A DNA stretch of 64,000 nt, from assembly GCF_000515415.1 (NCBI RefSeq), contig NZ_KI911783.1, positions 1,788,392-1,852,391 on the forward strand, in the 5' to 3' direction. This document shows, in pieces, positions 48,039 to 58,768 of the stretch (the stretch's first letter is position 1; every line of letters begins with the position of its first letter). The stretch comes from Bradyrhizobium sp. WSM1417 (GTDB taxonomy: Bacteria > Pseudomonadota > Alphaproteobacteria > Rhizobiales > Xanthobacteraceae). The translations under genes and the position numbers were made by a program. The notes under the pieces are model-generated. The model worked only from the letters and a program-made list of their open reading frames with translations, was not told the DNA's origin and made no database searches.

Positions 48039-48140
48039 GTGACAGCTCATCTCGACGGCGAGATCCGCGACGGCCGCCACCACATGCAGGTTCGCGTCTA
48101 CTACGAGGACACGGATTTCTCAGACTGGACGTTGTCGTAA
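48039..48140 (+). pseudogene. ybgC: Chromosomal ybgC, 5' fragment cut by an integrative element
   Basis: The GTG at 48039 opens 27 or so codons that match the N-terminus of YbgC-type acyl-CoA thioesterases (DGEIRDGRHHMQVRVYYEDTD), then the reading frame runs into foreign sequence and stops at 48138. The full-length copy at 50835 shares 24 of the first 28 residues but differs at many third codon positions. In related genomes ybgC leads the tolQRAB-pal genes. The rest of the native gene should lie at the far end of the element, outside the window. Confidence 0.9.
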
Positions 48141-49804
48141 CAGCTCAACGTGCTGATGTTCCCTGTTTTGGGACAGTTTTCTGGGAAAAGCTGCGGGCTG
48201 AAAAGGGCTGCGGCGTTCAAGTACGGGGTGTACTCGTAGGGCATCCGCTTGCGCGCCGGATGCACTATAATGCAGTTGAGCAGGTTGCGGAAAGCGACAC
48301 GAGTCTCGATCGCCTTCGGATTTGTCTTGAGCGCGGTGACCAGTCTCTTTGCCTCCGAACAATATCGGTCACCAAACCTCGGATGATCGAACGGGATCAC
48401 GTTTTCGCCACCGTTGCCGAGCAACCGCAGGCGCTCCTCGAGAGTTTCCCGCTCCGCGTCACATTCATCTATCCGCTTGACTAACTCATCCGGCTTGCGA
48501 CGGCTGTTCGCGATCGCATATGACAAGCGTTCGATCTCAGTGTTCAGCACATGGCACCGACGCTCTAGGTTAGAGCGTTCGCTGGTCTTTTGCGGATTTC
48601 TCTTCTGCTCCTCCTTCCAGGCACGCATCGCCTCTTCAATGGCTTTCGGAGAAAGCAATCTTACTTCCATTTTTTCCGCAACGTCCTTCAGTAGAACGTC
48701 CATATCAAAGCTGCGGGTATGCTCGCAGGTGCTTCGCTGATGCGCGTTGGCGCATGCGGCGCGTGGTCCACCATTCCGGGAGGACTGAGCGATTCGCATA
48801 TGGCCATAGCAAACGCCGCACCGAAGGACTCCTGCAAGCGGATGCTCGTTGTTGCGCGGGACCACGGGTCGGCGCCGCGGCTTGCCGGTAGGTCCGAACA
48901 GGTGGATAGCGCGCTCACTGCGAACCTTCTGCGCTCTCTCCCAGAGCGCTTGGGGAACGATCCGCAGCTCGGCGTTTTTGACGATGATGTGGCGTTCTTC
49001 AGGATTGCGGCGCTTCTGCTTCTTCTGCGTTTCCGGATTGAGAATTGTTGAGCGAACATTCCAATGTATTTCGCCGATATACAGTTCGTTGCCGACAATG
49101 CCGCGACCATGGCGGCCGCCAGTGATGCACTGATGATTCCAGGTGGTACGACCAGCCTTGTTCTTATGACGAGTGGCCCCAGGCGTGGGCACGCCTTCGC
49201 GGGTAAGATCGGCGGCGATATCTCGCGTTGAACGGCCCGACGTATACTCGATGAAGATACGGCGCACGATCTTCGCTTCGCTCTCATCGATCATCCGCTC
49301 GCCAGGCGCGCCCGGCCTTGGCCGATAACCATAGGCGTATGAGCCGGGAATTCTTCCGTTGCTGACAGCGTTATCGTGCCCGCGCCGAACCTTGTCGGCG
49401 AGCTGTGGCTTGTAGATCGTATTGTAGAGACTTGCGATGCTGATGTCAGTCGCCGTCGCATAAACGCCCTTCTGATCCATCAGCTCAACGCGGTTGAACT
49501 CAAACACCTGCTTGAGCCGCTGGATTGTGGCGGGATCGCGCGACAAGCGGTCGAAATGCTCGACGATGATCACGTCGAAGTCTTGCTTTCGCACACCTTC
49601 GAGCAAACGCTGATAGCCATCGCGCTTGTCTTCGGTAAGGCCAGATTTTGCAGCGTCGACAAATTCACCAACGACATCGAGGCTATTGCGTGCGGCGACC
49701 TTCCGGCAGAGTAATAGCTGACCGTCAATCGAGGTCACTTTTTGCATGTCGCTCGAGTAGCGAGCGTATATCGCGGCCCTCTTTTGTTGTGATCGTGTCG
49801 CCAT
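48101..49804 (-). CDS. Large serine recombinase (site-specific integrase)
   Basis: The 567-residue protein has the resolvase catalytic domain (about residues 8-150; serine 17 in AIYARYSSDMQ, DVIIVEHFDRLSRD), a recombinase domain (about 165-290), a zinc ribbon (CGVCYGHM ... CANAH ... C, about 345-390) and a coiled coil (about 410-460). These define the large serine integrases that insert elements at one attachment site. The last eight codons (SEKSVSS and the stop) are read in antisense through the ybgC fragment, so the C-terminus changes on excision. The start is ATG at 49804, which overlaps the small upstream gene. Confidence 0.93.
   Translation of the reverse strand: MATRSQQKRAAIYARYSSDMQKVTSIDGQLLLCRKVAARNSLDVVGEFVDAAKSGLTEDKRDGYQRLLEGVRKQDFDVIIVEHFDRLSRDPATIQRLKQVFEFNRVELMDQKGVYATATDISIASLYNTIYKPQLADKVRRGHDNAVSNGRIPGSYAYGYRPRPGAPGERMIDESEAKIVRRIFIEYTSGRSTRDIAADLTREGVPTPGATRHKNKAGRTTWNHQCITGGRHGRGIVGNELYIGEIHWNVRSTILNPETQKKQKRRNPEERHIIVKNAELRIVPQALWERAQKVRSERAIHLFGPTGKPRRRPVVPRNNEHPLAGVLRCGVCYGHMRIAQSSRNGGPRAACANAHQRSTCEHTRSFDMDVLLKDVAEKMEVRLLSPKAIEEAMRAWKEEQKRNPQKTSERSNLERRCHVLNTEIERLSYAIANSRRKPDELVKRIDECDAERETLEERLRLLGNGGENVIPFDHPRFGDRYCSEAKRLVTALKTNPKAIETRVAFRNLLNCIIVHPARKRMPYEYTPYLNAAALFSPQLFPENCPKTGNISTLSCYDNVQSEKSVSS
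48110..48125. other. Probable left attachment junction (attL) inside ybgC
   Basis: Similarity to ybgC ends in ACGGATTTCTC, just where a YbgC protein would continue with (S)GIVYHAN. The crossover therefore lies within a few bases of 48114-48122. The exact overlap dinucleotide cannot be read without the attR side. Confidence 0.7.
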
Positions 49805-49988: not shown

Positions 49989-50834
49989 TGCAGCCAAGCC
50001 TTCACAAGCTACCGTAAATTTCTACCGCGCGCTATGAATAGGCGGCTGGGATCACGTGCGGCGTTCGCATGCTCCGTTCGGAGGCTCGATCGAAGCCCCT
50101 GCATTCGGCTTTCGCCTGATGCGGATCGCCATCCGGCAGCAGCCTCAGTCGGCAAGCGCCATGACCTGACAAGAGTCACGACAGGGCGACGGATGACTTT
50201 TGCTCCCGCAGCTCTCATGGAAGTCTCAATTGGCAATGGCGAGTCTATTCATGTTGACTGTTGCAGTCGTGAATGAAAATGAGATTCTTCGAATGTAGGG
50301 CGCGAGCGCGTCGCTAGCGAAGCTAATCGTAAGCCGGAGGGAATTTGCTAAGCAAAGCGGAGTAGAAATACTTGTGTCTGAGGGTGCGAGACATCCGATT
50401 GATCCGGTTCATAGGCATGACGATCCGTTTTCGCAGTCATTACACGACGAACGTCATTGAATGGGACGCAAGGCATGTCGGAGTCGCACCGACCCACTGG
50501 CCTGCGACTCTGGGACCGGATGGATCTAACTGCTCGCGCGCCTGCGACTGCGAATCCTCTGCCAACTCCTGGCAACCATCGGAGCGGTCATCTGCACCGC
50601 TGCGGGAGACGACGCCAAAGCAGCTGACTGCTATTGGACCTGCCCTAACATTCCAAATATCATATCGAACAACGTACCAGCACTGCGGGCGAGAACCCCT
50701 TCGGCGCTTGCCCGCCCGATGCGCACAGCGCGAACGAGAGGGCGCTGCAATGCCCAAGATTTTGATGATTGCTTGGAAAAGAGCGTCCGTGCCGGAGAAC
50801 GAGTTCTCAAAAACCCAACAAGGGGAATCGCACT
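49989..50834. other. Leader region before the spare ybgC, no gene supported
   Basis: About 850 bases. Open frames of 75-165 codons exist on both strands but overlap each other and match no family. The region must contain the recombinase promoter and a promoter for the spare ybgC. Confidence 0.5.
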
Positions 50835-51278
50835 GTGACAGCCTCTCTTGACGGCGAAATTCGCGATGGACGCCATCACATGCAGGTCCGCGTCTATTTC
50901 GAAGATACGGATTCCGGCCAAATTGTGTATCACGCAAATTTTTTACGCTTCATGGAACGCGGCAGGACGAATTACTTGCGCCTGCTCGGAACCAGTCAGC
51001 ACGCGCTGCTGCAAGAGGCGCGGAACGATGCGCCCGGCTTTGCCTTTGTCGTCCGGTCGATGACAATCGATTTTCTAAGGCCGGCAGTCTTGGACGACGT
51101 GCTTGACGTCGTTACTCTCCCGCAAGAGGTGAGAGGCGCGTCAATTACCTTACTGCAGGAATGCAGGCGCGCAGAGGATCTCTTGGTCACGGCGCGTGTA
51201 CGTGTGGCGTTTATCTCATGCGGAAAAGCGCAGCGTATCCCGAACGCGCTGCGGCTTGCTATAGAAGGGCATAAATGA
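50835..51278 (+). CDS. ybgC: YbgC-type acyl-CoA thioesterase carried by the element
   Basis: The 147-residue hot-dog-fold protein has the family motif YFEDTDSGQIVYHANFLRFMERGR with the catalytic aspartate in DTDSG. It is full length and intact. Family members hydrolyse acyl-CoA and are linked to the Tol-Pal envelope system. It begins at the same GTG codon as the broken chromosomal copy, with AAGGGG about 9 bases upstream. Codon choice is less GC-rich than in the chromosomal fragment, so it was acquired from a diverged source. It could restore the function lost by insertion. Confidence 0.9.
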   Translation: MTASLDGEIRDGRHHMQVRVYFEDTDSGQIVYHANFLRFMERGRTNYLRLLGTSQHALLQEARNDAPGFAFVVRSMTIDFLRPAVLDDVLDVVTLPQEVRGASITLLQECRRAEDLLVTARVRVAFISCGKAQRIPNALRLAIEGHK

Positions 51279-52722: not shown

Positions 52723-53451
52723 CCTATCGGCGCGGTATGCCCCAACGCGACGGCATGTTTACGCTGGCTTGGAGTAAGAGCGCGCCAGAAATAATGTACC
52801 TTGTTTGTCTCCATGGCAGCCAGATCGTCCATGTACCGCTTCTTTGTTAGCGTGACGTTGAAGAACGAAGGGGCGTGGTCGATACGGTTCCTGCGCAATC
52901 GCCAAAACACGACAAAGGCTTGCTTCCCGGGGTCAGTTTCTTGTTGGTTCGATAATACTCCAGCGCACCGGTAAGGATTTGCGAGTTCTCCGCCCGAGCC
53001 AGTCTCTCCAGCGCTCGGATGCAGGAATCCAACCGCATCTTCTGAACAAGCCTGTCGAGTTGCCGTTTGGCGTCCGCCGGCGTTAACCGACGGCCATTCT
53101 CGTAGACGGCAACGTTAAACTGAAGAATGCAGTGCGAGCCGACATCAAGGCTATGGTTGGTGAAGCCGTTTTGAATCTCGAAATGATATCTCAGGCCTTC
53201 CTGCCCGCAGAGGCCGCAAGTTTCGCAATCTCGTCATGGTCATGAGTCAGACCCGTGAAGCGCCATTCAGCGAAAGCTTTCGGCAATGTGTCCGCGATGG
53301 AGAGCGGAAGCATACTCTCCCTGACCCTTCTGGTGTATGTCTCCATTTTCGCAAGACCCCCATATCGAATTGCTGCGCTTACAAATTGTTCTTTCCACTG
53401 AGAATTTCTTACGGTCGCAATACGAGCGGGGCCACCTGGCAGCATACCCAA
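52719..53451 (-). pseudogene. CxxC-type hypothetical protein broken by two frameshifts
   Basis: Joining three frames restores a protein of about 200 residues: KAFAEWRFTGLTHDHDEIA, then ETCGLCGQEGLRYHFEIQNG with a zinc-type CxxC, VGSHCILQFNVAVYENGRRL, MRLDSCIRALERLARAENSQ, and after the second shift FVVFWRLRRNRIDHAPSFFN to a stop at 52719. The shifts lie near 53218 and in the CCCCGGG run near 52930. It resembles a rhizobial hypothetical protein family. The likely original start is ATG at 53313 or 53346. Confidence 0.65.
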
Positions 53452-53505
53452 AATGTCACTCTAGCGATAGCATCTGCGGCTCCCAACGCTATTTCATGGG
53501 TGACA

Positions 53506-53523
53506 ATCAGCTAATTAGCTGAT
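53506..53523. promoter_or_regulatory. Perfect 18-bp palindrome, likely operator
   Basis: ATCAGCTAATTAGCTGAT is a perfect inverted repeat 33 bases before the HTH regulator gene. Position and symmetry suit autoregulation by the XRE-type protein encoded next. Confidence 0.7.
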
Positions 53524-53555
53524 AAGCTTCCAAAAAATCGAAGAGGTTCTATAGT

Positions 53556-53885
53556 ATGGGTCTAGATATGTCGTCCTTTGGACGTGCCATTGCCTCCGCG
53601 CGCAAGGGGAAGGGCATGAGCCAAAAGGAACTCGCCACTAAGATCGTGAAGGAGGATGGCGAGGCGATAACGCCGCAGTACTTGAACGACATCGAACACG
53701 ATCGCAGAAGCCCGTCCTCGGACCATTTGGTGGGCGAGTTTGCAAAGGTTCTAAAAATGGATCCGCTTGCCTTGTACGGCGTGATCGGGATGCTGCCGGA
53801 GCAGGACAGAAAACTGGTAAGAAAATCGACACCGGACCAGATCAATCAGGCGTTTGTCGCCTTTCGAAAGAAACTGAAGGAATAG
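53556..53885 (+). CDS. XRE-family helix-turn-helix regulator
   Basis: The 109-residue protein has a Cro/C1-type HTH (about residues 9-70, IASARKGKGMSQKELATKI and ITPQYLNDIEHDRRSPSSDH) and a short C-terminal tail. It is followed after 5 bases by an ImmA/IrrE-type metallopeptidase gene, the usual repressor-antirepressor pairing of mobile elements. AGAGG lies upstream of the ATG at 53556, and ATG at 53568 is an alternative start. It probably represses itself and perhaps the ubiquitin-like operon downstream. Confidence 0.88.
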   Translation: MGLDMSSFGRAIASARKGKGMSQKELATKIVKEDGEAITPQYLNDIEHDRRSPSSDHLVGEFAKVLKMDPLALYGVIGMLPEQDRKLVRKSTPDQINQAFVAFRKKLKE

Positions 53886-53890
53886 GCAGC

Positions 53891-54595
53891 TTGAGGTACG
53901 TCCGCGACACGATGCATGGTTTTCGGGAGAGGCCTCATTACGAGCCCGCCGAACTTGATACCATGTTTGAAAAGCTCGTGGCGGACCACCTGCGGAGCAA
54001 GCACGGCAAGGTCGAGTTTCCTATTTCGACTGACGATATCACGACCTTGATTGAGCGGGACGTTACGGATCTGGACCAATATGCGGACCTGACCATGTAT
54101 GGCGCCGGCGTTGAAGGCGTCACCGAGTTTGCCCGCGCTGGAAAGCCAAGGGTCTCGATTTCCAATGACGTCCACAGGTTCGAGAACCGGCTGCGGACCA
54201 CCCTCACCCACGAATATGGGCATGTGATCCTGCACGCCTACCTGTTTGGGCTGGAGCAGCGCCAGCTACCGGTGGATGGCAAGCGGAAGCCCAACGCTAT
54301 CTATTGCAAGCGGGACACAATGATTTCCGCGAGCAAGACTGACTGGATGGAATGGCAGGCAGGATACGTTTCCGGGGCAGCGCTGATGCCGAAATCCTAC
54401 CTCCAGAAGATTGTTGCTGGCGTTCAGCACGCACGCAACATCTACGGCGCGTGCGAGCCTGGCGGTGCCAATGGTGAAGCGCTGATTCAGGCTGTCGTGA
54501 GTGAGTTCGCCGTCTCTCGGGAGGCGGCAACGGTTCGTCTGAAGATCCTTGGCCACCTCGGTCGGGAGCAGGCAATCGGCAATCTGTTCACCTGA
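53891..54595 (+). CDS. ImmA/IrrE family metallopeptidase
   Basis: The 234-residue protein has the zinc motif THEYGHVILH (histidines 107 and 111, glutamate 108) and the downstream EWQAGYVSGAALMPKSYL, which supplies the third ligand (about residue 154). Such proteases cut XRE-type repressors in response to DNA damage or phage signals. The start is TTG at 53891 after AAGGA, and ATG at 53912 is possible. It lies 118 bases before the ubiquitin-like gene and is presumably the switch for it. Confidence 0.88.
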   Translation: MRYVRDTMHGFRERPHYEPAELDTMFEKLVADHLRSKHGKVEFPISTDDITTLIERDVTDLDQYADLTMYGAGVEGVTEFARAGKPRVSISNDVHRFENRLRTTLTHEYGHVILHAYLFGLEQRQLPVDGKRKPNAIYCKRDTMISASKTDWMEWQAGYVSGAALMPKSYLQKIVAGVQHARNIYGACEPGGANGEALIQAVVSEFAVSREAATVRLKILGHLGREQAIGNLFT

Positions 54596-54638
54596 TCAAT
54601 GCGTTAGCTACCATTGACTCTCCTGCAGGCCGGCTTAT

Positions 54639-54658
54639 GATACGTCAATAAGCGTATC
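54639..54658. promoter_or_regulatory. Inverted repeat upstream of the Ubl operon
   Basis: GATACG (54639-54644) and CGTATC (54653-54658) with an 8-base spacer, just before the predicted -35. It is a candidate binding site for the upstream regulator, though it does not match the 18-bp palindrome. Confidence 0.45.
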
Positions 54659-54664
54659 CGCTGA

Positions 54665-54695
54665 TTGACGCGCGAGACAACGCGGGACGTATAAA
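54665..54695 (+). promoter_or_regulatory. Predicted sigma-70 promoter of the Ubl operon
   Basis: TTGACG (54665-54670) and TATAAA (54690-54695) with a 19-base spacer, slightly long. GGAGA at 54701-54705 precedes the ATG at 54714. Confidence 0.5.
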
Positions 54696-54713
54696 CTGGA
54701 TGGAGAATCAGTC

Positions 54714-55040
54714 ATGAGCGGCAACGAGGACAACACTTCCGGCCATGGGGGCGGGAATTCCGGTGGCGGAAACGCCGGAGGCGGAGGCAATCCCGGCGGC
54801 TCCGGAAACCCGGGTCACGGCGGTCCCAACGTCCACATCGAGGTTGATGGGCACAACAAGTCGGTACGGGAGGGCGACTGGCTCGTTAGCGACCTCAAGG
54901 ATAAAGTTGGTGTCGACCCCGCCAAGGTGCTGGCGGAGATTACTCCGACAGGGCTCGTCGATCTTGATGACCAGGCTCGCATCGACGTGAAGGAAGGCAT
55001 GCGCTTCATGAGTCATGCGCGTAAGGGCGGTTCATCATGA
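54714..55040 (+). CDS. Ubiquitin-like modifier with glycine-rich N-terminus
   Basis: The 108-residue protein has a flexible N-terminal half (about residues 8-38, nearly all Gly/Asn/Ser/Pro), then a beta-grasp-like domain (about 39-103, VHIEVDGHNKSVREGDWLV, SDLKDKVGVDPA, LVDLDDQARIDVKEGMRFM) and a C-terminal KGGSS. The di-glycine followed by two residues resembles an immature ubiquitin precursor, to be trimmed by the JAMM protease encoded two genes on. It is the first gene of a four-gene operon with E2, JAMM and E1 genes, which is the main evidence for its role. It overlaps the E2 gene by four bases. Confidence 0.82.
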   Translation: MSGNEDNTSGHGGGNSGGGNAGGGGNPGGSGNPGHGGPNVHIEVDGHNKSVREGDWLVSDLKDKVGVDPAKVLAEITPTGLVDLDDQARIDVKEGMRFMSHARKGGSS

Positions 55041-55411
55041 GCACCGGGTCGACCAATGACGGCCTCGATGAAAGTCTCCGGCCCATCGCGCAGCTGTGCG
55101 ATGGGGTGGTGTCTTTCCAAACCGAGGGATGGCGAAAGTTGATCTATATGGAGAAGCTTCGCTTCAGGGTCGGTTCAAGCAGTCACGTCATGGATGCGAT
55201 CCTCTGCCTCAACCACGACAACCCCGCATATCCCACGAAGCTTTATCTGGCCGCGAACGTGGGCGGCGAAGGCCTGAACTGGAACGAGCAGGCGTACCTG
55301 CTCGGCCGCAACTGGCCGACCTTTTCCTGGAAGGACGTGCCGGCAGACCAGCCATATGTCGATATTCTTGCCGCGCATCTCTCAGCGCTGAGCAAGGGAA
55401 AGGCAGCCTAG
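55037..55411 (+). CDS. E2-like conjugating protein lacking the canonical cysteine
   Basis: The 124-residue protein follows an E2-fold order: a beta meander with YMEKLRFRVGSSSH, the YP in NPAYPTKLYLAANV (residues about 62-75), then GGEGLNWNEQAYLLGRNWPT and the C-terminal helix. In a standard E2 the catalytic cysteine lies about eight residues before the tryptophan at 93. Here that span (80-92) has none, and the only cysteines are at 21 and 57. It is assigned mainly by operon position between a Ubl and a JAMM gene. It may use another residue or act as a scaffold. Confidence 0.7.
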   Translation: MSTGSTNDGLDESLRPIAQLCDGVVSFQTEGWRKLIYMEKLRFRVGSSSHVMDAILCLNHDNPAYPTKLYLAANVGGEGLNWNEQAYLLGRNWPTFSWKDVPADQPYVDILAAHLSALSKGKAA

Positions 55412-55412
55412 C

Positions 55413-56015
55413 ATGTGGCGGCTTCTCTCCGGCCTATTCGGTCGTTCATCCCCGTCGCCTGCAGACCAAAGGCAGGTTGAACGTCGCGCATACGCGACAT
55501 TTCGGTCCACGAGCTCGTTTATTCAGGAGGTAAGGCGCGATCTATCCCGGCCCCATGCATTCGCGCATGAGCGGGTCGGCTTCATTACCGTGCGCGCGGC
55601 GTCCGGTGCGGATGGCCTGGTTTTGCTCGCGGAGAACTATTATCCGGTCGCTGATGACGAGTATGTGCGCGACAATACTGTCGGCGCGATGATCGGCCAG
55701 GAAGCACTCCGCAAGGCGCTAGAGCTGGCGCTCTTGCAAGGCATCGGCGTCTTCCATGTGCATATGCACTTCCCTTCGGCGCGGTTGTGGTTCAGCGCCA
55801 CCGATCTGCGCGAACAAGCCAAGTTCGTGCCTGACTTCTTTAAAGTTTGCCCGCAGATGCCGCATGGCGCAGTCGTTCTCAACGACAAGACTGTCGCCGG
55901 ACGCATATGGACTGCCCCCACCCAAGTGAAGAACATCGATGAGTTCAACATTGTTGGCACGCGCTCAACTGTGGGGCGCGCCGCGGCCGATGGCAGCACA
56001 GATTTGTTCGCATGA
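55413..56015 (+). CDS. JAMM (JAB/MPN) metalloprotease, predicted deubiquitinase-like
   Basis: The 200-residue protein has the JAMM metal set: glutamate 53 in AHERVGFITV, HVHMH at 115-119, and SATD (serine 128, aspartate 131) slightly further away than in the textbook motif. It would remove the two residues after the GlyGly of the Ubl, remove Ubl from targets, or both. It starts 1 base after the E2 stop and overlaps the E1 gene by four bases (ATGA). Confidence 0.82.
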   Translation: MWRLLSGLFGRSSPSPADQRQVERRAYATFRSTSSFIQEVRRDLSRPHAFAHERVGFITVRAASGADGLVLLAENYYPVADDEYVRDNTVGAMIGQEALRKALELALLQGIGVFHVHMHFPSARLWFSATDLREQAKFVPDFFKVCPQMPHGAVVLNDKTVAGRIWTAPTQVKNIDEFNIVGTRSTVGRAAADGSTDLFA

Positions 56016-56836
56016 CAAACGACCGCGATTTTAGCCGCCAGAGCTTCCTCGGTGCACATTCCGAAGCGCTGTTCGCGAATTTGCGAGTGGCTATCGTCGG
56101 ACTTGGCGGAGGTGGCTCCCACATCGCGCAGCAGCTCGCCCATCTTGGCGTCGGGCATTTCCGGCTAATTGACCCTGATGAGATCGAAGCAAGTAACCTA
56201 AACCGCCTGATTGGCGGCACTCAGGACGATGTCGATCACGAGCGCCCTAAAGTAGAGATCGCCACCCGTATGATCCTTGGCATCCGGCCATGGGCGAAAG
56301 TAACCTCCAGGCAAGCGAAGTGGCAGGAGGCGGACGACCTGATCCGTGATGCGCACGTCCTGTTCGGGTGCGTCGACGGCTATCAGCAGCGCGACTATTT
56401 GGAGACCGCCGCGCGACGTTTTGGTCTGCCATACATCGATATCGGAATGGACGTGACCAGACTGCATGATGCCAGTTTTGCGGTGGCAGGGCAGATGATC
56501 ATGACCTTACCGGGCAATCCGTGCATGCGCTGCCTGGGCTTCCTGACTCCCGACAAGTTGGCGCAAGAGGAGAATCGCTATGGCGACGTGGGCATCAACC
56601 CGCAAGTGGTTTGGACGAACGGCATGCTAGCCTCGTTTGCTGTCGGTGCATTCGCAAAGCTCTTTACGCCGTGGTTTTCCGCAGAAGAAAACTATACGTG
56701 GCTGGAGTTCGACGGTAATGCTCAAACCGTCTCGCGAAGCCAACAGCCAGATTACTTCCCGCTGTTACCAGTATGCCCACATCATGGGGGGACTAACGGT
56801 CTCGGCGAATTCGGCTTCGACATTCGTCGAGCGTAG
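56012..56836 (+). CDS. E1-like ThiF/MoeB-family Ubl-activating enzyme
   Basis: The 274-residue protein has the adenylation fold: VAIVGLGGGGSHIAQQLAHL (residues 27-46), LIDPDEIEASNLNRL with the catalytic aspartate and arginine, K80, and VDGYQQRDYLE (121-131). Zinc ligands are likely in CMRC (171-174) and CPHH (255-258). Between 175 and 254 there is no cysteine, so the usual E1 thioester cysteine is absent. It would activate the C-terminus of the Ubl as an AMP ester. It ends the four-gene operon. Confidence 0.88.
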   Translation: MTNDRDFSRQSFLGAHSEALFANLRVAIVGLGGGGSHIAQQLAHLGVGHFRLIDPDEIEASNLNRLIGGTQDDVDHERPKVEIATRMILGIRPWAKVTSRQAKWQEADDLIRDAHVLFGCVDGYQQRDYLETAARRFGLPYIDIGMDVTRLHDASFAVAGQMIMTLPGNPCMRCLGFLTPDKLAQEENRYGDVGINPQVVWTNGMLASFAVGAFAKLFTPWFSAEENYTWLEFDGNAQTVSRSQQPDYFPLLPVCPHHGGTNGLGEFGFDIRRA

Positions 56837-56882
56837 CGGGCGGCTCAGCGACCACGCTATAGAGCCCTGAGTCCGGCGACAC

Positions 56883-57214
56883 GCTCCGCGCTCCGGGGCT
56901 ACCTTGCGGCCATCGAGCAAGGCGTTCCTCTTCTGGTGGAAGCTCGAGAGATCATAGCTGCTTTCCATGCGATGATCCGCAAGAAGGCTCACGTAGAGCT
57001 TGAACCATGGTTGGAACGAGCGCGCGCAAGCCTCGTCATGTCTTTTGCCAATGGCGTCATCAAGGACAAGGCCGCTGTCAGCGCAGCGATCACGACGTCA
57101 TAGTCCAATGGACAGACCGAGGGCCAGATCACCAAGCTCAAACTGGTCAAACGCCAAATGTACGGACGCGCCAAGCTCGACTTGCTACAGGCTCGGCTAA
57201 TCGGCGCCACATGA
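56883..57214 (+). pseudogene. ISL3-family transposase remnant (C-terminal part, with stop)
   Basis: The frame reads IEQGVPLLVEAREIIAAFHA, WLERARASLVMSFANGVI, then a TAG near 57101 followed by SNGQTEGQITKLKLVKRQMY and GRAKLDLLQARLIGAT before the true stop at 57212. This is the C-terminal domain of ISL3 transposases. The N-terminal two thirds are absent. Confidence 0.85.
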
Positions 57215-57542: not shown

Positions 57543-58625
57543 TCAACCCAATGTTTCCTCAAACAAGAGATCCGGAAGTGGGCGCTCCGAGTGCCATATA
57601 CCTTTCTGCTTTACATAGTAACGACATAACGAGCTGATTTTTGGGCTGTCGCCAAGTCTCACTCGCTGACGTGAGATCTCTCCCAACTGAGCGAAGACCT
57701 CTTGCGTGTAGCCTGAGGACGACAGGAATAATCCCCCATCGGTGGCATCACGCGCATTGACCTCAACGAACGAGGTCACGTCATCCATTCCAGAACGGTT
57801 GCGTAGCCAATGCTTGATCTCAATGTAGAATACCTTGTAGATGCCTCCAGCGACGCAACGTACAATGACATCCTTGCCGCCATCCTTAGCAGGCCGCGTT
57901 AGCTCCACCGAAAACCCGATTCCGCTTACAGCGGTGGCAATCACCCTTTCTAGATCGCGCCACTCAATTTGCTCCAGAATGCGAGGATTTCGTGCAACAA
58001 GTTCGCATAGACAAGCAGCCATCGCGCGAACTACTTGCGCGACGGGAGAAGCGATCTCGGCGTCCGGGTGTTTGGCTATTTGGGCAACGACCTCTGCGAG
58101 AGCGCTCCGGAGTTCGTTGACGCCCTCTCCCGTCTTGGCGCTAGTACGGAACACAAAATCGAACCCCAGTTCTTTCGCCAGCTTTTCAAGCCGGTCGACG
58201 TTGTGTTTGCTCGTACCCATATCCTCCCGCGTCGAGACGAGGAGTCTGCGAGCAACCGATACCGATGTGTGTTCTGAAGCTGCCGAAAAGGCCTCGAGCC
58301 AACCACGTGTTGAATCACCCAACGATCCATCTTGGTGATGCGCCAGATCCACGGCGACCACGACTGCGATGGCTTCTTTCCCGTTTAGGCTGGATTTCAG
58401 CCGCGACGCCGCATAGTCGCCGGGAATGTCGTGGATTGAAACGCTGCCCTCTAGGGCAGGCAATCCTATGTCAGCTGTTATCATACTCCGCGTGCTGTAT
58501 TCCTGGAATGGGTCTTCCGCGTTGCGAAGCCTCCTAAACAGGGCCGTCTTCCCTGCACCTGAGTCCCCGATGACTACGATTTCGCGATCCCTGCGTAGTT
58601 CCTCCGCTCGGAACTGAGACTTCAT
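57543..58625 (-). CDS. Small GTPase fused to an Mrr-like restriction nuclease domain
   Basis: The 360-residue protein joins two domains. The first (about residues 14-190) is a Ras-like GTPase: G1 GDSGAGKT at 20-27, G3 DIPG at 66-69, a degenerate G4 (STRED at 131-135 instead of NKxD) and G5 TSAK at 161-164. The second (about 215-340) matches Mrr-type PD-(D/E)xK nucleases: WRDLERVIA, GFSVELTRPAKDGGKDVIV with D252, YIEIKHW with E269 and K271, and GGLFLSSSGYTQEV. It may cut DNA under nucleotide control. ATG at 58625 follows GGAGG by about six bases. It is a stand-alone gene. Confidence 0.82.
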   Translation of the reverse strand: MKSQFRAEELRRDREIVVIGDSGAGKTALFRRLRNAEDPFQEYSTRSMITADIGLPALEGSVSIHDIPGDYAASRLKSSLNGKEAIAVVVAVDLAHHQDGSLGDSTRGWLEAFSAASEHTSVSVARRLLVSTREDMGTSKHNVDRLEKLAKELGFDFVFRTSAKTGEGVNELRSALAEVVAQIAKHPDAEIASPVAQVVRAMAACLCELVARNPRILEQIEWRDLERVIATAVSGIGFSVELTRPAKDGGKDVIVRCVAGGIYKVFYIEIKHWLRNRSGMDDVTSFVEVNARDATDGGLFLSSSGYTQEVFAQLGEISRQRVRLGDSPKISSLCRYYVKQKGIWHSERPLPDLLFEETLG

Positions 58626-58768
58626 CCTGGCCTCCAATGTGCTGTCATCAGCATTGCGATTGAACTAAGCCGGCGGCGACGGCCGTATAACGCCGAGAAC
58701 TCGAGCGGACGGTTTGAACACTTTCAAAGTCTTTCGATCAGATGAACCTCAACCGGAAATCCCATCAA

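Follow-up and report, generated by a model that had tools for sequence, protein, structure and literature searches.

A Bub-like and probably DNA-damage-inducible cassette for putative protein tagging, located on a Bradyrhizobium mobile island

The chromosome of Bradyrhizobium sp. WSM1417 (NZ_KI911783.1; 8.05 Mb) carries, in the 64,000-nucleotide (nt) stretch from 1,788,392 to 1,852,391 analyzed here (the window), six genes predicted to encode a helix-turn-helix (HTH) repressor, a metalloprotease, a ubiquitin-like protein (Ubl) and three proteins resembling enzymes of Ubl processing and attachment. The locus raises the question of which kind of system these genes form, by what chemistry the Ubl could be attached to its targets, and under which conditions the system would be switched on. 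The answer that we favor, with moderate confidence, is a DNA-damage-inducible, Bub-like protein-tagging cassette residing on a mobile island of the chromosome. The six genes are listed below in window coordinates, with lengths in amino acids (aa) and E values of profile matches.

53556-53885, plus strand: HTH repressor (CapH-like), 109 aa; HTH_3 4e-8, PADLOC capH 5e-4
53891-54595, plus strand: ImmA/IrrE (M78) metalloprotease, CapP-like, 234 aa, TTG start, HEYGH motif; Peptidase_M78 4.1e-5, PADLOC capP 1.7e-10
54714-55040, plus strand: Ubl (BubA-like), 108 aa, C-terminus KGGSS; structure model, fold matches and tail alignment
55037-55411, plus strand: E2/RWD-like protein (BubB-like), 124 aa; W-x-x-x-S motif with Ser97 (codon 55325-55327)
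55413-56015, plus strand: JAMM metallopeptidase (BubC-like), 200 aa; invariant Glu53, His117, His119, Ser128 and Asp131
56012-56836, plus strand: E1-like adenylating enzyme (BubD-like), 274 aa; ThiF 3.2e-33, BubCD 6.6e-18

All six reading frames and their junctions agree with the order proposed in an earlier note on this DNA, in which the last four genes overlap or nearly touch: the Ubl and E2-like genes overlap by 4 nt, a 1-nt gap separates the E2-like and JAMM genes, and the JAMM and E1 genes again overlap by 4 nt. The HTH and M78 genes are spaced by 5 nt, and a promoter gap of 118 nt lies between M78 and Ubl. The span given in that note (53506-56836) is correct for the genes, but its start falls inside an operator, and the HTH gene begins 50 nt further on. 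At E ≤1 Pfam recognizes the HTH, M78 and E1 proteins and finds no match for the window Ubl, E2-like or JAMM proteins. PADLOC likewise yields capH, capP and, for the E1, E1-E2 matches and nothing for the same three proteins, and among the NCBIfam matches listed none of the six proteins reaches a model cut-off. The reading frames are nevertheless genes rather than chance occurrences, because the E2-like protein has 132 and the Ubl 53 protein-database matches and because the gene order is kept in related loci.

In each of the 22 different related loci read, the E2-like, JAB (JAMM) and E1 genes follow one another as in the window; the sample was selected through its E2-like match and includes some close kin (the JAB gene of L024 is broken and the E1 gene of L006 is cut by the contig end; L002 and L003, equal to L021 and L022, and L007 were excluded before counting). 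A Ubl gene was matched in 6/6 close loci; among the 16 distant ones, BLAST or the record annotation revealed one in 11, and the remaining five (L024, L025, L026, L028, L029) were searched no further. Outside this count, the nearest E2-like and E1 matches on a Spirosoma linguale plasmid lie ~47 kb apart, if the plasmid is circular. The E2-like protein occurs in 14/265 genomes of the genus including its own, in its own genome only among 397 of the order, and in two of 385 of the class, namely its own and a weak match in L007 (E 0.007) that was dropped as spurious. Internal TGA codons suspected in genome matches proved to be the normal stop at the match end. None of 13 pattern stretches in viral contigs encodes a relative, and relatives are present on 10 plasmid records, of which six were read (H28, H30, H32 and H34 were left out, and for Spirosoma only the place of the E1 was recorded). 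Two of the plasmid relatives (L035 10837-14204 and L036 10815-14194) have two genes directly past the cassette, one for an S8 peptidase and one for a protein that binds ATP (AAA).

The structure model and fold matches predict that the Ubl consists of one beta-grasp domain (approximately residues 38-104), closest to multi-ubiquitin proteins, that follows a Gly-rich arm (approximately 1-37). An E2-like fold is likewise predicted for the 124-residue protein, so that both folds on which the earlier reading depended are present in the models. The GGSS end of the Ubl read from the sequence is real and generalizes to a G[GA]SS tail in 31/33 aligned Ubls, which makes the tail a plausible candidate substrate of the JAMM protein. 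Neither feature of this Ubl that had been called unusual is so: passages of Iyer et al. 2006 (PMC1779556) describe their type 6e with one to three Ubl repeats, a Bub-kind operon of Rhizobium phaseoli likewise encodes a single-domain Ubl, and many but not all of the 33 aligned Ubls have the Gly-rich arm. The Gly/Asn-rich arm (54714-54824) varies strongly in length between relatives, and such an arm also stands upstream of a Multi_ubiq domain in P0173.

The JAMM protein retains Glu53, His117, His119, Ser128 and Asp131 in 16/16 aligned sequences (16 of 23 available). The Prok-JAB profile matches four of these 16 weakly (best 0.006), and a PDB sequence search found none at E 10. The nucleotide-binding Gly-rich loop of the E1 is intact. 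Cysteines C171, C174 and C255 are conserved in 22/22 rows reaching these positions and are, together with a His two residues past C255, likely zinc ligands; no further conserved Cys was found in the window-type rows. At the position of the crossover Cys, which is Cys in 3/3 ThiF/MoeB proteins, Tyr is present in 21/21 window-type E1s (L006, cut, and L024 excluded), corresponding to the invariant Tyr190 of the window E1 (codon 56579-56581). The alignment of seven Bub/DUF6791-type E1s at this position is uncertain and gives one Tyr, two Gly, one His and three gaps; in each of the seven, the following helix contains a Cys that the window-type E1s are without. The E2-like protein has invariant L56, Y65, L69, N81, W93, S97, L111, H114 and L115 and no invariant Cys column in 26 aligned rows. 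Its W-x-x-x-S motif with Ser97, which by eye resembles WQRWS in the Prok-E2_E protein of R. phaseoli, is present in 23/23 proteins (the window and the 22 related loci).

These observations bear on whether the Ubl might be handed on through a canonical cysteine relay, in which E1 and E2 would carry thioesters on cysteines special to this clade (C120 of the E1, C21 or C57 of the E2-like protein). We consider such a relay improbable. C21 and C57 are invariant in 40/40 close rows aligned (the window and 39 of the 132 found), as the relay would have it, but across the wider set C21 is Cys in only 10/23, C57 in 12/23 and E1 C120 in 9/23. The Tyr at the crossover position of the window-type E1s also argues against it, as does the count of 0/7 Bub/DUF6791 E1s with a Cys aligned there, subject to the gaps and the uncertain alignment. 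Therefore, of the complete set for maturation, activation, transfer and removal that the earlier note had seen, the four component types stand and a canonical transfer set does not, because neither the window-type E1 nor the E2-like protein has a conserved catalytic Cys; the E2-like protein is without an E2-type catalytic Cys.

Among described systems the best fit is to Bub and type 6e operons, the latter of which sometimes have, in passages of PMC1779556, a standalone Cys-less RWD-like E2 between the Ubl and JAB + E1. The window shares with them a Ubl of the multi-ubiquitin kind, a Cys-less E2/RWD-like protein, JAMM and E1 in A-B-C-D order, a JAMM gene adjoining the E1 gene (fusion or adjacency of the two being a Bub and type 6e trait), and CapH/CapP or CapW regulators. 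Profile-to-profile comparison with hhalign against the Citrobacter counterparts gives a probability of 99.4% for the E1 set and 92.9% for the JAB set, and the JAMM motif of that Citrobacter plasmid operon (L043, of the Bub kind) ends in Asp104, which is the position altered in the BubCD(D104A) complexes of known structure. The differences are as follows. The window has four separate genes whereas A-B and C-D are fused in the Citrobacter operon, and its proteins are missed by the Multi_ubiq, Prok-E2_E and Prok-JAB models. The E2-like set and Citrobacter BubB align with a probability of only 0.3% (E 0.24), and the Prok-E2_E profile (PF14462), which does match the Citrobacter and R. phaseoli proteins, finds none of 40 E2-like members at E 10; searches of PDB sequences with the E2-like protein (E 10) and with the profile of set A3 gave no match. 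In the E1 tree (without L006, L024, L072 and L074) the window-type group has support 80/86 and the four Bub rows lie elsewhere, with long branches and Bub unseparated from MoeB. DUF6527, found in some Bub operons although its universality is not established, was absent at E 1 from the open reading frames of 24 locus records (of which L004, L006 and L024 end soon past the E1) and of the window between 48 and 64 kb. Gene set, order, predicted folds and regulators thus agree with Bub, Pfam profiles, fusion and DUF6527 do not, and the E1 tree does not clearly join the two. We call the operon a Bub-like four-gene variant, which may already be among the 544 Bub operons reported in PMC13373217 (219 of them with CapW or CapH+CapP, according to the excerpts of that source).

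Of the two families suggested earlier, Bil is rejected. It shares Ubl, E2, JAMM and E1 in four genes, but passages of PMC11354881 describe BilA with two Ubl domains, BilB with a Cys-containing CEHH active site, and BilD with two adenylation halves and a Cys domain, whereas the window has a single Ubl, no conserved Cys in the E2-like protein and a short E1 of 274 aa with one ThiF match. A sulfur-carrier pathway, with a ThiS/MoaD-like Ubl as the carrier and with JAB and E1 working in the synthesis of cofactors or siderophores, we regard as very unlikely. The E1 does belong to the ThiF family, and metabolic operons with JAB + E1 + ThiS/MoaD are known (excerpts of PMC1779556), but here an E2/RWD-like partner is present, no rhodanese domain occurs among the proteins scanned with Pfam, the Ubl is closest to multi-ubiquitin proteins, and the regulators are of the damage type.

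The regulation of the Bub-like cassette can be approached through three sites.

53502-53527, plus strand: operator O1, upstream of the HTH gene; GACAATCAGC-TAATTA-GCTGATAAGC
54614-54641, plus strand: sigma-70-like promoter TTGACT-16-TATGAT, the sole one found in 53300-57000
54644-54669, plus strand: operator O2, of the Ubl operon; GTCAATAAGC-GTATCC-GCTGATTGAC

The operator is a 26-bp site of the shape 10-N6-10, and at ≤2 mismatches O1 and O2 are the only copies in the whole genome. Their pair score of 31 was reached by 0/993 random window pairs (maximum 30) and 0/1000 shuffles, statistics that call for caution because the shape was selected only once the sites had been seen. The promoter is weak evidence alone (one found against a mean of 1.7 in shuffles). 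O2 starts 2 nt past its -10 element and overlies the putative promoter start, a geometry that fits a blocking repressor. An operator common to both units, as would be expected for such a repressor, and recurring in relatives gives good support to regulation by the HTH protein through putative binding.

Homologues of the M78 protein at E <1e-20 are present in 7/257 genus genomes including its own and on eight plasmid records, six of these from Rhizobium phaseoli. Nine HTH-M78 module loci were read (all six in other genus genomes and three of the eight plasmid records), and eight of them have the operator, with 2-4 mismatches, in the gap that follows M78; three (L072-L074) have a copy before the HTH gene as well (0-2 mismatches). 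The ninth, L076, has none in this gap at 5 mismatches, and a 4-mismatch site under a second pattern that was built after the module sites had been seen. As background, 57 loci without the module loci (635,947 bases) contain none at ≤3 mismatches, four at 4 and 46 at 5. Downstream of the module are Prok-E2_E and ThiF proteins in L073 and L075 and, judging from gene starts, the same layout in L072 and L074; DUF6791-ThiF and DUF6527 in L076 and L077; Multi_ubiq, Prok-E2_E, JAB-ThiF and DUF6527 in L080; DUF7665, Prok-JAB and two further genes without Pfam match in L078; and DUF3892 alone before the record end in L079. Given this mix, the HTH-M78 module mostly serves several kinds of Ubl-type operon.

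Conversely, the same cassette is found with different switches. In 6/6 close relatives (L004, L005, L006, L021, L022, L023) the HTH-M78 pair is replaced by a divergently transcribed WYL regulator, a protein probably of the CapW/BrxR kind and unrelated to the pair; the one from L021, sole of the six compared with PDB, matches CapW 9c5g at 1.4e-83. Six more distant plasmid relatives have, by annotation, four divergent HTH + ImmA/IrrE pairs and two Xre/RES pairs, and PADLOC reported capH/capP for both HTH + ImmA/IrrE pairs that were run. The window pair resembles CapH + CapP in gene order, HExxH protease, profile matches and an operator over the promoter; it differs in being co-directional with its operon, and its M78 protein has little sequence similarity to the CapP of known structure (E 0.84). 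The nearest E1 is that of L021 (75%), and the nearest M78 proteins (83-86%) belong to modules preceding another operon type, of which the L073 E1 has 31% identity over 173 residues with the window E1. Cassette and switch therefore seem to have separate histories.

Taken together, these data suggest the following working. At rest, the HTH repressor would occupy both operators, at its own gene and at the Ubl promoter start, and silence the two units. The M78 protease would be activated by a signal, for which single-stranded DNA arising from damage or phage replication is the likeliest candidate, and would then cut the repressor and so release the Ubl operon. The JAMM protein would trim the G[GA]SS tail and could also take off conjugates, the E1 would adenylate the trimmed tail, and E1 and E2-like protein would transfer the Ubl to putative targets, bypassing the customary Cys-Cys thioester relay; the route might run via Ser97 or straight from the adenylate. 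Bub chemistry may involve serine as well, although the proposal does not rest on this. Our more far-reaching proposal, a tentative one that we rate at somewhat less than an even chance, is that the window represents a distinct four-gene branch of Ubl conjugation that lacks a catalytic Cys in E1 and E2-like protein (Ser97 oxyester or attack on the adenylate), with a control module and operator largely dedicated to, and moving between, Ubl operon types.

The presumed benefit to the cell need not be phage defense, which the earlier note had linked to such operons; the Bub authors, in the excerpts of PMC13373217, report no demonstrated phage protection. The cassette may instead serve a general DNA-damage or stress response or the upkeep of the island, a possibility to which we give substantial weight without preferring it. 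According to the same excerpts, the three regulator families beside Bub operons are all DNA-damage responsive and a global stress role is left open, and the cassette lies 5.4 kb from the left end of its island. On the other hand, related regulators govern known anti-phage operons (PMC13373217, in part), and the 10 plasmid records with E2-like relatives recall mobile defense genes.

The mobile-island setting itself is supported. The left end of the island is marked by one further gene.

48101-49804, minus strand: large serine recombinase (Pfam Resolvase/Recombinase), beside the interrupted 5' part of the native ybgC

The native ybgC breaks at 48,118-48,121, and GC content drops there from 0.67 to 0.57; the right end was not found. 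Four of seven relatives fetched have an uninterrupted ybgC, and the other three have a related recombinase region at the same point. The rest of the native locus is located 5.6 Mb farther down the record in opposite orientation (G000:C1:7471015-7474079 minus; L055), a placement suggestive of either a large inversion or an integrative element in several parts. A second ybgC-like gene (50769-51278), ~75% identical to the native ybgC of relatives, stands just inside the island, and a third ybgC-like stretch is at G000:C1:7594260-7594561. Next to the operon, 57543-58637 (minus strand) encodes a fusion of a small GTPase domain and an Mrr-type nuclease domain (Pfam), possibly a further defense gene. 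The same genome has another Ubl-type operon (L070; G000:C1:2040000-2052000) with Multi_ubiq, DUF6791-ThiF and DUF6527; upstream of it lie an HTH-like gene in divergent orientation and a gene whose protein contains an M78-like EEYWH stretch, both recognized by eye.

The occurrence of CapW-type and HTH-M78 switches on one cassette, together with an operator that can be read from the sequence, would allow a direct test of whether DNA damage or phage turns on Ubl-tagging systems, the question posed by Bub. The unfused four-gene form means that each step could be assayed alone. If conjugation is truly Cys-free, the cassette would bear on which chemistry arose first in ubiquitin-type tagging.

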